A stretch of DNA of 62,873 bases from contig JAMPXI010000003.1 in NCBI GenBank assembly GCA_023701265.1, positions 1-62,873 on the forward strand, written 5' to 3'. Source of the DNA: Desulfuromonadales bacterium (lineage in GTDB: Bacteria > Desulfobacterota > Desulfuromonadia > Desulfuromonadales > BM103). This document shows positions 8,573 to 62,871 of this stretch, piece by piece. Under the pieces are notes generated by a model that saw nothing but the letters and a program-made list of their open reading frames with translations, was not told where the DNA came from and did no database searches. A program made the position numbers and the translations under genes. Within the stretch, counting starts at the first letter, position 1, and each line of letters starts with the position of its first letter.

Positions 8573-8601
8573 GGTGATGCTCCTTCTCACTTATGGTATC
8601 G

Positions 8602-8619
8602 GCGGGCAGAATGGCCCGC
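8602..8619 (-). promoter_or_regulatory. Hairpin in the rpmI-rplT gap
   Basis: A 6-bp perfect inverted repeat (GCGGGC / GCCCGC, 6-base loop) lies 30 bases upstream of the rplT start in an unusually long (107-base) gap between rpmI and rplT. In other bacteria L20 binds structured mRNA in this operon; whether this hairpin is such a site is inference. Confidence 0.35.
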
Positions 8620-8679
8620 AACCGGATCTGAAGGGGGAGACAGGGCCCCTCAGTTCACGGTGGTTGAAGCAACTGGTCG

Positions 8680-47495: not shown

Positions 47496-47520
47496 GGCAA
47501 CAGCTCCGGACAGGACAAAG

Positions 47521-47590
47521 GTCCGCGGTCGGCAACGTTCAGGGGCTGGGGCTGCGGGGGCGGCAAATCGAGTGTGATGTCCCCGGAATT
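47521..47590. repeat. 70-bp dispersed repeat, copy A
   Basis: First of four related 70-bp segments (others at 48240, 48921, 59331). It opens with GTCCGCGGTCGGCAACGTTC and ends GTGTGATGTCCCCGGAATT, the latter shared exactly with copy C. It lies just upstream of the RF-like gene and next to the MITE-like element. Confidence 0.75.
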
Positions 47591-48226: not shown

Positions 48227-48239
48227 GGGGAACCGGAAG

Positions 48240-48309
48240 GTCCGCGACCGGCAACGTTCGCTGGCGGGGGTTGCGGGGCGGTGAATTTGGCGAGGTGTTT
48301 CCGGATCCG
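48240..48309. repeat. 70-bp dispersed repeat, copy B (most diverged)
   Basis: Aligns with copies A, C and D over GTCCGCGACCGGCAACGTTC, a G-rich middle and a degenerate end (GAGGTGTTTCCGGA). Located in the divergent gap between the genes at 47767 and 48441. Confidence 0.55.
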
Positions 48310-48860: not shown

Positions 48861-48920
48861 CCAGCCCCCTATTGATTGCATGACATGACTTCAAGAAAGC
48901 GCGGACGGCTTACGACAAAT

Positions 48921-48990
48921 GTCCGCGTTCGGCAACGTTCGGCGGCAGGGATTACAAGACCGGCGAATGAAGTGTGATGTCCCCGGAATT
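48921..48990. repeat. 70-bp dispersed repeat, copy C
   Basis: Begins GTCCGCGTTCGGCAACGTTC and ends GTGTGATGTCCCCGGAATT. The preceding bases form an inverted repeat with its start (GCGGAC / GTCCGC). Lies 10 bases past the stop of the gene at 49001. Confidence 0.75.
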
Positions 48991-58665: not shown

Positions 58666-58706
58666 GTCATAAGTCCAATAGGTCATATATGACCAATAAG
58701 ACCTAT
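58666..58706. repeat. 9-nt minisatellite, extragenic part with palindrome
   Basis: On the minus strand the sequence is a series of nonamers: TATTGGTCA, TATATGACC, TATTGGACT. The centre contains the perfect palindrome GGTCATATATGACC (58681-58694). It contains the TAG stop (58703-58705) of the upstream gene and runs into the 5' region of the downstream gene. Confidence 0.65.
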
Positions 58707-59272
58707 GATGGTTTTCTACTCTCCCGCCGCAGACGATACAGCTTCTCGGTGAATCCGCCCTCCTCCAGGAAATCGCTTTCCAACCGGCGCAGCTGCTGGT
58801 CGAGCAGATAGTTGGTCTGGTGGATCAGGCAGATCAGCGTGTTGGCGGCAATTTCTGGGGAAGCTTTTTCAACATAGGTCCTATAAGTCTCATAAGACCT
58901 ATCAGACCTATAAACCAGCTTTCTGACCGCTCCCGCTTGCGGGTTTTCTTTGGTCCAGGCAGGCAGCCCCTTCTGGCGCAGGAAGTCTTCGTAATCGAGT
59001 AGCAACTCCTCCAGGCTGGCGCGGGCCACGCCGATCAGCTTCAGCTCGGTCTTCTTCGAGGTGCCGGAGGCCATGCTCCCTTCGGCGATGTTCTGCTTGC
59101 CGCTGCGGGCGGCCTGGACCATTTGGTCGATGGTGCGGCTGCGTCGGTCGATGAAGCGGTCACAGAAGCGGACGGTGGCATCGTAGACAATCTCCGCCCC
59201 CTGGTACGATTTCAGCTGCCGGTAGCCGCCGTGCGGTCCGATCAGTTCAACTCCGCGGTCTTTCTCCGCCAT
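58703..59272 (-). CDS. Four-helix-bundle suffix-domain protein
   Basis: 189 residues from ATG 59272 (GGAGGG upstream). The helices match the four-helix-bundle family related to the protein of 23S rRNA intervening sequences (FCDRFIDRRSRTIDQMVQAARS; SKKTELKLIGVARASLEELLLDYEDFL; IHQTNYLLDQQLRRLE). A segment YRSDRSYETYRTY (coded by 58874-58913) is a 9-nt repeat translated as Y-R-S/T units. Role unknown. Confidence 0.8.
   Translation of the reverse strand: MAEKDRGVELIGPHGGYRQLKSYQGAEIVYDATVRFCDRFIDRRSRTIDQMVQAARSGKQNIAEGSMASGTSKKTELKLIGVARASLEELLLDYEDFLRQKGLPAWTKENPQAGAVRKLVYRSDRSYETYRTYVEKASPEIAANTLICLIHQTNYLLDQQLRRLESDFLEEGGFTEKLYRLRRESRKPS
58874..58913. repeat. 9-nt minisatellite inside the four-helix-bundle gene
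   Basis: On the coding strand units TATAGGTCT, GATAGGTCT, TATGAGACT and TATAGGACC repeat in frame, encoding YRS DRS YET YRT. Related nonamers occur about 200 bases downstream at 58666-58706. Confidence 0.65.
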
Positions 59273-59330
59273 GGTGTTCCCTCCGGTCATTGAAACACAT
59301 ATCAATAAACAAGGACATTTTATGACAAAT

Positions 59331-59400
59331 GTCCGCGTTCGGCAATGTTCGGTGGCAGAAGTTACAAGGCCGGCGAATTATGTGTGGTGGCGCCGGAATT
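59331..59400. repeat. 70-bp dispersed repeat, copy D
   Basis: Begins GTCCGCGTTCGGCAATGTTC and ends GCGCCGGAATT. It differs from copy C in the centre and 3' end but shares the first 16 bases and the GGCGAATT core. Adjacent to the disrupted zinc-ribbon frame at 59409. Confidence 0.7.
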
Positions 59401-59408
59401 CCACCAAA

Positions 59409-59603
59409 TCATCGTGCCAGATATCGCACATCGCCGCACACCCAGCACAGATGCAGCACAACCCCCTCTCGGTGACCGACCGTAACCAGGCGATTGACCT
59501 CGACCTCGACACCAAGTAGCCCTTGGGCACGCCGGCAAAGTCACGGAGTGAATCGACCTTCTGGATACCCGGCAAAACAGATGGGACAAATTGACGAACT
59601 CAT
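59409..59603 (-). pseudogene. Small zinc-ribbon reading frame interrupted by an in-frame UGA
   Basis: From ATG 59603, with GGGAGG 9 bases before it, the frame reads MSSSICPICFAGYPEGRFTP, then TGA (59543-59541), then continues in the same frame for 43 codons as LCRRAQGLLGVEVEVNRLV through a CWVCGD motif to TGA 59411-59409. CPIC and CWVC form a plausible zinc ribbon, one half on either side of the stop. Alternatives are a nonsense mutation (CGA to TGA), a sequencing error, or selenocysteine. Family not recognised. Confidence 0.4.
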
Positions 59604-59869
59604 ACCCGTCAACCTCCCTGAAAACCCAAGGTGCTAACATAACCCTGCCTGGCAAACGAGCATCCGGCATATTTCCCGGACAGGCCGCCTCAACTGACCG
59701 GACCTCCTTCAAACGACAGACCACGGCAGGATGAGGCAACGCAAGCCCCGGCCTCACGCAACAGGCAACTATCGCCTGCCAGTCCCGCCGGGGTTTGCTT
59801 ATGGGAATAACCAGGGACGCCTTCCTGAGTCGGCCCATGAATTCGTGACCTCCGGTAAATTCCTCTGCA
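59604..59869. other. Non-coding segment with one strong hairpin
   Basis: No credible gene. An 11-bp stem GCAAGCCCCGG (59741-59751) / CCGGGGTTTGC (59788-59798), with one G:T pair, encloses a second 5-bp stem CAGGC / GCCTG (59762-59778). This could be a structured RNA in either direction, or the remains of an element. The rest shows no recognised motif. Confidence 0.35.
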
Positions 59870-61174
59870 TCAATCGGCCAACTGTCGAGACACCTCGAGA
59901 AAATCCTTTTCTCTGCGAATGAAGGCTTCAACGACCAATGGGTCGAGGGCTTTCCCTGCATCTTGACGAATCAGTTCACAACATTCTTCATGAGGATACG
60001 GCCCCTTGTAGCGCCGCCGAGAGCGCAGGGCATCGTAGATATCGGCTATTGCCATGATCCGCGCCGACAGCGGGATGTCCTCGCCCTGAAGCCCGGCCGG
60101 GTAGCCCTTGCCGTCCCAGCGCTCATGGTGGCACTGAGCGATTTCGATGGCCGTTTTCAGAAACGATTCGAAACTCAACTTGGCTTCGGCCCGGCGCAGG
60201 ACCGAGGCGCCGTACTCACTGTGCTTTTTCATCAGTTCGAACTCGTCCGGCTCGAAACGCCCCGGCTTGCACAGCACAGTATCCGGGATGCCGACCTTGC
60301 CGATATCGTGCAGCGGCGCCGACTTGGCAAGGCTGTCGATATATTTGTCGGTAAGGACCTGACGGTCGCGTTCACCGCGGCTCAACTCTTCGGCCAGCAG
60401 GCGCACGTAGCTGGTGGTCCGCTCGATGTGATTGCCGGTTTCGGTGTCGTGCATTTCGGACTGATAGGCCAGGGCGTGGATCGTCACATCCTGAGTTTCG
60501 AGCAAGCGCAGGGTGGTACGACGATAGCGGTAATGTGCCTGGTAAAAAATGGCAAACAGCAACAGGTACAGGACACCCCCCGCGACGGCAATCCATCCCC
60601 ATACCGTGCGACGGGTGTCAGCCAGGCTCCGTTCCAGGTCGATGTCGGTTTCATACAATTCAACGGCGCCGAGGACGTAGCCCGCATAAATCACCGGCGA
60701 GTAAACCTCGAGAACGATCTTCGCCCCATGCTCGGTGATATTCTCGCTCTTTTCCGCACTCTTTTTGCCATAGGCGACCTCCCCTCGCAGGGCTTGGTCG
60801 AGCAACGGGTTTCCGGCGAAATTCTGGCCGATCAACTCATTACGGTCACTCCAAAGCACGTCGCCGCGTTCGTTCCAGACCTTGATCCTGAATACTCCGG
60901 GGATATCCAACAGGGCGGCAAAAAACTCGCCGACCTCTTCCGGGACTTTCTCCCCCGGGGGACTCTGGAACCACCGGGCAGCCTCTGGATGCTGCTTGAG
61001 AGTCGTCCGCACCAACTCCGGGAAAACCCTGAGATGGCTCTGGATGACTTCCTCGGTGACCCTCTTCGTCATGATCTGCGCCAAAATGAGCGTCACCAGC
61101 AGGACCACTACGAACGTAATCACGGTGTACTGCAGGATTACGTGACTGCGGATCATCTCGCTGTGCTTGATCAT
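59870..61174 (-). CDS. Membrane HD-GYP domain protein (putative c-di-GMP phosphodiesterase)
   Basis: 434 residues. An N-terminal membrane helix (VITFVVVLLVTLILAQIM), a periplasmic sensor-like region (about 40-180), a second helix (VWGWIAVAGGVLYLLLFAIFY) and an HD-GYP domain: HIERTTSYVRLLAEEL, SAPLHDIGKVGIPDTVL (catalytic HD), MKKHSEYGASVL, HHERWDGKGYPAGLQGEDIP (GYP). All metal-binding residues are present. ATG 61174 has AGGGGG upstream. Confidence 0.92.
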   Translation of the reverse strand: MIKHSEMIRSHVILQYTVITFVVVLLVTLILAQIMTKRVTEEVIQSHLRVFPELVRTTLKQHPEAARWFQSPPGEKVPEEVGEFFAALLDIPGVFRIKVWNERGDVLWSDRNELIGQNFAGNPLLDQALRGEVAYGKKSAEKSENITEHGAKIVLEVYSPVIYAGYVLGAVELYETDIDLERSLADTRRTVWGWIAVAGGVLYLLLFAIFYQAHYRYRRTTLRLLETQDVTIHALAYQSEMHDTETGNHIERTTSYVRLLAEELSRGERDRQVLTDKYIDSLAKSAPLHDIGKVGIPDTVLCKPGRFEPDEFELMKKHSEYGASVLRRAEAKLSFESFLKTAIEIAQCHHERWDGKGYPAGLQGEDIPLSARIMAIADIYDALRSRRRYKGPYPHEECCELIRQDAGKALDPLVVEAFIRREKDFLEVSRQLAD

Positions 61175-62522: not shown

Positions 62523-62871
62523 TGGTGGAGGTGGCGGGAATCGAACCCGCGTCCGAAAATCATCCACATCAGGCGTCTACATGCTTAGTCCGCGTTTTAA
62601 GTTAACCCTAGGAACTCCCACGAACGGGATGCCTTTCGGGCGAGCCTGCTAAATTTCGCCTTGGTGCCACAGGCACTCACCAAAGCTAGCCCACTGAATG
62701 ACATCCCTGATCCCCCGTGGGCGAGAAGTTCAGAGATGTGGTCGCCTAATTAGGCGGCCAGTGCGTAATGAACGTCGTTGTCGGCGTTTATTAAGTTGGG
62801 CTTGTTACGGAGCCAGCCCACTCCGGCATGCAACCTGCGCTTCCAATCCCCGTCGAAACCTGGGCACCCCC
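62523..62871 (-). ncRNA. ssrA: Transfer-messenger RNA (tmRNA), complete
   Basis: 349 bases. Acceptor stem GGGGGTG / CACCTCC closes both ends, with encoded CCA at 62525-62523 and a T-arm GCGGG TTCGATT CCCGC. The tag reading frame is GCC GAC AAC GAC GTT CAT TAC GCA CTG GCC GCC TAA, encoding ADNDVHYALAA (after the alanine from the charged end). A sequence like ATAAAC precedes the resume codon. It rescues stalled ribosomes with SmpB. The promoter lies outside the window. Confidence 0.97.

Follow-up and report, generated by a model that had tools for sequence, protein, structure and literature searches.

A selenoprotein-like reading frame in a Desulfuromonadales draft genome very probably ends in the 3′ remnant of a truncated DUF6946 gene

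DUF6946 (PF22187) is a family of proteins of ~230 residues in the nuclease clan CL0236, in which it was placed following matches to type II restriction endonucleases in structure searches, according to a passage of PMC10584680; its conserved Asp and E-x-K residues may be catalytic. The toxin-antitoxin table of PMC12654330 merely lists the name DUF6946. Another described system with which the locus studied here can be compared is that of the bacterial selenoproteins with a SECIS element; almost all selenoproteins have Cys homologues, as stated in a passage of the deep-Sep paper (PMC12013277). The locus shares with bacterial selenoproteins an in-frame TGA, a hairpin close by, and the selenocysteine machinery encoded in the genome, but differs in that there is no Cys homologue, the frame across the TGA is unconserved, and the hairpin is at chance level. 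It shares with DUF6946 the ungapped alignment of its last 36 codons to the end of the family, directly followed by a stop, whereas the first ~190 codons, among them the family's conserved D...ExK stretch, are missing or unrecognisable. The feature is thus, in all likelihood, the 3′ remnant of a truncated and decayed DUF6946 gene.

The window (the whole stretch of 62,873 nucleotides that was analysed) contains on its minus strand, from 59603 to 59409, a frame of 64 codons with a single internal TGA that reads MSSSICPICFAGYPEGRFTP(TGA)LCRRAQGLLGVEVEVNRLVTVGHREGVVLHLCWVCGDVRYLAR(stop) (Table 1). The first-pass annotation proposed this frame as a possible selenoprotein or decaying zinc-ribbon gene, and its description of the cues is accurate: CPIC lies upstream and CWVC downstream of the TGA, and GGGAGG precedes the ATG (printed before it as GTTTTCAGGGAGGTTGACGGGT). 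The internal TGA is followed by 43 further codons, including CWVC, and then by a TGA stop.

Table 1. Features of the locus and its surroundings, in positions of the window.
Feature	Position	Strand	Remarks
Start ATG	59603	minus	20 sense codons, including CPIC, precede the TGA
In-frame TGA (codon 21)	59543-59541	minus	Precedes the homologous block; interpreted as an ordinary stop or out-of-frame triplet
Front part with ATG, CPIC and TGA	59520..59603	minus	Without significant homology
5-bp hairpin CCAAG-GGCTA-CTTGG, candidate SECIS	59526-59512	minus	Stem after 14 bases, loop after 19 bases past the TGA
Tail, very probably a remnant: last 36 codons of a DUF6946 (PF22187) gene, LLGVEVEVNRLVTVGHREGVVLHLCWVCGDVRYLAR	59412..59519	minus	Profile match and identity to full-length genes
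Terminal stop codon	59409..59411	minus	Profile match reaches the last model position, with the stop directly after it, the end point of the family
HD-domain gene	59870-61174	minus	Flanks the interval
23S rRNA intervening-sequence-protein-like gene	58703-59305	minus	Flanks the interval; 29.8 bits, just below the Pfam cut-off of 33.8
Repeated CCTATAAGTCTTATAGG-like short units	58670-58920		In the 23S rRNA intervening-sequence-protein-like gene and its end (by eye)
Dispersed repeat, copy beside the remnant	59320-59400		Just downstream of the remnant's stop
Dispersed repeat, other copies	47514-47590; 48237-48278; 48914-48990		Spaced 680-720 nt, with small ORFs between
tmRNA	62523-62871	minus	Borders the contig end; 205 bits
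L20 leader	8580-8662

The organism very probably makes selenoproteins, since the selD gene of its assembly (G000, a draft of 2.72 Mb in 180 contigs, 87% complete) carries an in-frame TGA of its own (KSSG-TGA-AAKMAPG; G000:C13:16098-17018, L090) and itself looks like a selenoprotein gene. It adjoins selA and selB on one contig, with the SelB winged-helix domain present in a 683-codon frame, and tRNA-Sec was found in the same assembly at 70.3 bits (gathering score 47). The first-pass annotation had given absence of this machinery as grounds for rejecting a selenoprotein; with selA, selB, tRNA-Sec, and selD all present, those grounds fall away. The machinery would therefore be available to a small selenoprotein of 64 residues in which the TGA is read as selenocysteine and the downstream hairpin serves as the SECIS, a reading that would represent a new family if true and that is also favoured by the plausible distance of the hairpin, by the G that comes first in its loop, and by a Cys two residues past the TGA. 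We nevertheless regard it as extremely unlikely, on account of the hairpin statistics and the homology described below.

The hairpin exists, with the stem, loop, and distances attributed to it, but it is at chance level. Our rule, modelled on the bacterial SECIS consensus and distinct from bSECISearch, called for a stem of at least 5 bp with G-U pairs allowed, a loop of 3-14 nt with G in its first two positions, and a loop start about 16-37 nt past the TGA. Counted over the two strands of the window, 53% of the 1,910 TGA trinucleotides have an equivalent hairpin by this rule, or 18% of them when the stem is restricted to Watson-Crick pairs. The 64-nt RNA from the TGA onward has a fold z of -0.77, its stability being equalled or exceeded by 43 of 200 shuffles; a SECIS better than chance was not found just downstream of the TGA. 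At ten places in the window, an in-frame TGA has one CxxC motif before it and another after it within the limits set by the neighbouring stops.

The homology begins 21 bases past the TGA. From there to the stop, 59412-59519 matches positions 189-224 of 224 of a 14-row profile (two divergent rows, L044 and L057, left out) without gaps at 43.5 bits, compared with at most 19.2 bits for any of 192 control segments taken from the window. When these two rows were still part of the profile, an alignment with frameshifts permitted at high cost gave 36.7 bits versus at most 20.5 in 406 overlapping control segments. Using the part after the TGA as query, matches at E <=0.001 were obtained in three of 394 other genomes of the phylum sample: G454 (58% identity), G025 (54%), and G628 (53%), with E from 1e-7 to 5e-7. 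All three matches are the ends of full-length, stop-free frames of 231-256 codons, which are DUF6946 members by Pfam (E 1e-89 to 1e-92). Comparison of the read-through protein with 98 genomes (97 besides its own) gave one convincing match outside the window, in which residues 28-62 align to the end of a 238-codon frame of G025 (E 1.5e-6, 54% identity); this gene (E 6e-92) and one gene of G015 (E 5e-91) are full-length DUF6946 members by Pfam. PF22187 aligns to the remnant itself over profile positions 184-213 of 214 at 13.7 bits (E 0.042), and so falls short of the curated threshold, 27 bits across the ~214-position profile; the Pfam model lacks the power to recognise so short a tail. The C-terminal homology does connect the feature with DUF6946 and, judged from its sequence, it is a remnant and no functional member of the family.

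This homology also bears on the TGA and on the Cys pairs. Ungapped upstream extension of the alignment places the TGA at model position 193, a column in which 12 of the 14 rows have a letter (E, E, D, D, D, S, A, D, E, T, E, A); the N-terminus fragment L046_+638 was dropped before the column was counted, and two rows are fragments of one broken gene of G132. Cys occurs in 0 of these 12 rows, and two further homologues (L088 and L089) both have Gln at this position by eye, such that neither Cys nor Sec was found opposite the TGA. The first-pass annotation had itself held that orthologues with a sense codon for a residue other than Cys would speak against selenocysteine, and this is what the relatives have in all 12 rows with a letter (Glu, Asp, Ser, Ala, or Thr). 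What follows the TGA is the end of a family in which neither Cys nor TGA occupies that position, and no Cys homologue was found for this frame; the selenoprotein reading is thus largely refuted by homology.

The zinc ribbon fares no better, as none of the 12 rows with a letter has Cys in the CPIC and CWVC columns. CPIC, in the same ungapped extension, is aligned with family columns of Ala and of Val/Leu/Ile. The first Cys of CWVC lies in a column of Gly (11 rows) or Ala (one row), and its second Cys in a column of varied residues with no Cys in the same 12 rows; the later-found L088 alone carries Cys there (GWVCG), and the second Cys of CWVC is therefore not unusual. Two conserved CxxC knuckles were not found in the homologues. 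Of the proposed decaying zinc-ribbon gene, the decay is supported, in the form of a DUF6946 C-terminus with no recognisable gene before it, but the zinc ribbon is not.

No convincing relative of the whole 64-residue read-through frame was found in the 97 other genomes, which also argues against a selenoprotein, and 59520-59603 (CPIC included) is part of no profile match above control level. The second-best match of the read-through protein (G084, E 3.4e-4, residues 6-47) crosses the TGA position; it was rejected as a chance match, being an out-of-frame reading, with two TGAs elsewhere and Ser opposite codon 21, inside a 477-codon gene. In frameshift-tolerant profile alignment and ungapped scans of the frames, two upstream candidates for the missing body, SKPRRDWQAIVA at 59764-59799 (12.7 bits) and QKVDSLRDFAGVPK from 59563 in another frame, do not beat controls. 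With cheap gaps (4 bits), the full target scores 65.6 bits versus at most 59.9 in 406 window segments and beats all 300 shuffles, but it is the tail that accounts for this score. Taken by itself, the upstream part is equalled or bettered by 59 to 197 of the 406 controls, according to gap costs and the stretch taken, and we therefore make no claim for the suggestive upstream pieces. Nothing upstream of the remnant corresponds significantly to the family's conserved D97, E114, and K116, and the feature has no recognisable nuclease-like core (conserved D and E-x-K). Because the upstream codons are non-homologous, the TGA probably did not serve the ancestral gene as a codon in this frame; decoding as selenocysteine is unneeded to account for it. 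The simple nonsense change from CGA to TGA that had been suggested is unlikely as well, since these codons show no sign of the family's frame.

We infer that an ancestral full gene of about 230 codons would have ended at the stop at 59409, and that its first ~190 codons would have been deleted or altered beyond recognition; the last 36 codons and the stop remain, as the homology shows. Reading the same frame upstream adds ~28 codons of non-homologous DNA in which an ATG, CPIC, and a TGA occur by chance. Deletion is likely because only ~460 bases are available between the stop at 59409 and the HD-domain gene at 59870, compared with the ~690 of a complete gene. An assembly error is a possible cause in a draft genome of 180 contigs and 87% completeness; that the DUF6946 gene is intact in the organism and only the contig is broken by sequencing or assembly errors is nonetheless very unlikely, given that this space is too short, that frameshift-tolerant alignment yields no significant upstream part, and that small errors would keep the body recognisable in pieces.

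The remnant is probably translated into nothing useful, because its frame has no ATG, GTG, or TTG before codon 49 of the 64-codon frame. The same absence of an early start tells against a short gene of its own that reuses the DUF6946 tail, with a start past the TGA or in another frame, such as the 199-codon ORF at 59362-59961. In favour of such a gene, the tail retains 53-58% identity to full-length genes, but the 199-codon ORF is without a Pfam match and overlaps the end of the HD-domain gene, and we consider this reading exceedingly improbable. A young chimeric selenoprotein, in which non-coding upstream DNA joined to the DUF6946 tail would have acquired a start and a TGA that the machinery of this genome uses as selenocysteine (UxC), is scarcely credible.

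DUF6946 is patchily distributed, being found in nine of 277 genomes of the class, and a whole-genome scan of G000 (E up to 10) gave no other recognisable DUF6946 gene. A second decayed member is the broken gene of G132 (L058, C66:695-1338, JAGYPB010000002.1), from the same order as the window; unlike the remnant described here, it is recognisable over most of its length, with its pieces in different frames and internal TAG stops. The copy in G045 (L045, C6:145518-145919) matches only profile positions 1-135, ends in GTGFPGPDY, and is C-terminally truncated, a loss complementary to the N-terminal loss in the window. In G628 (L089 2257-3108, minus strand), DUF6946 directly follows a GmrSD_N + HNH gene, a restriction-like neighbour. 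There were no DUF6946 matches in phage records, seven in plasmid records (<60% identity), and one distant match in viral contigs; a contig scan with the G025 protein gave none, and one with the G015 protein six loci. PADLOC gave no match for three DUF6946 proteins at E up to 0.1.

Both same-genus genomes lack DUF6946, and there is thus no intact copy at the locus for comparison. DNA searches of 26 genomes with the interval, and searches of five with the HD neighbour, revealed no orthologous interval. Besides the interval itself, the strong matches are to the dispersed intergenic repeat beside the feature. This repeat, of ~77 nt (GACAAA.GTCCGCG..CGGCAACGTTC ... GTGTGRTGTCCCCGGAATT), is present in four copies in the window (Table 1) and in two copies in the same-genus genome G001 (C37; L079 1265 and 1774). 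Its end motif was not found in the stretches retrieved around the five Y1 transposase matches of this genome.

The patchy distribution of the family, the single recognisable trace in this genome, and the breakage in G132 fit a dispensable, nuclease-like gene that may be gained and lost. The in-frame TGA, the nearby Cys pairs, and the hairpin are all cheap in a GC-rich genome that uses selenocysteine, and where the part downstream of a TGA has homologues, this can by itself show that the frame across the TGA was probably never a gene.
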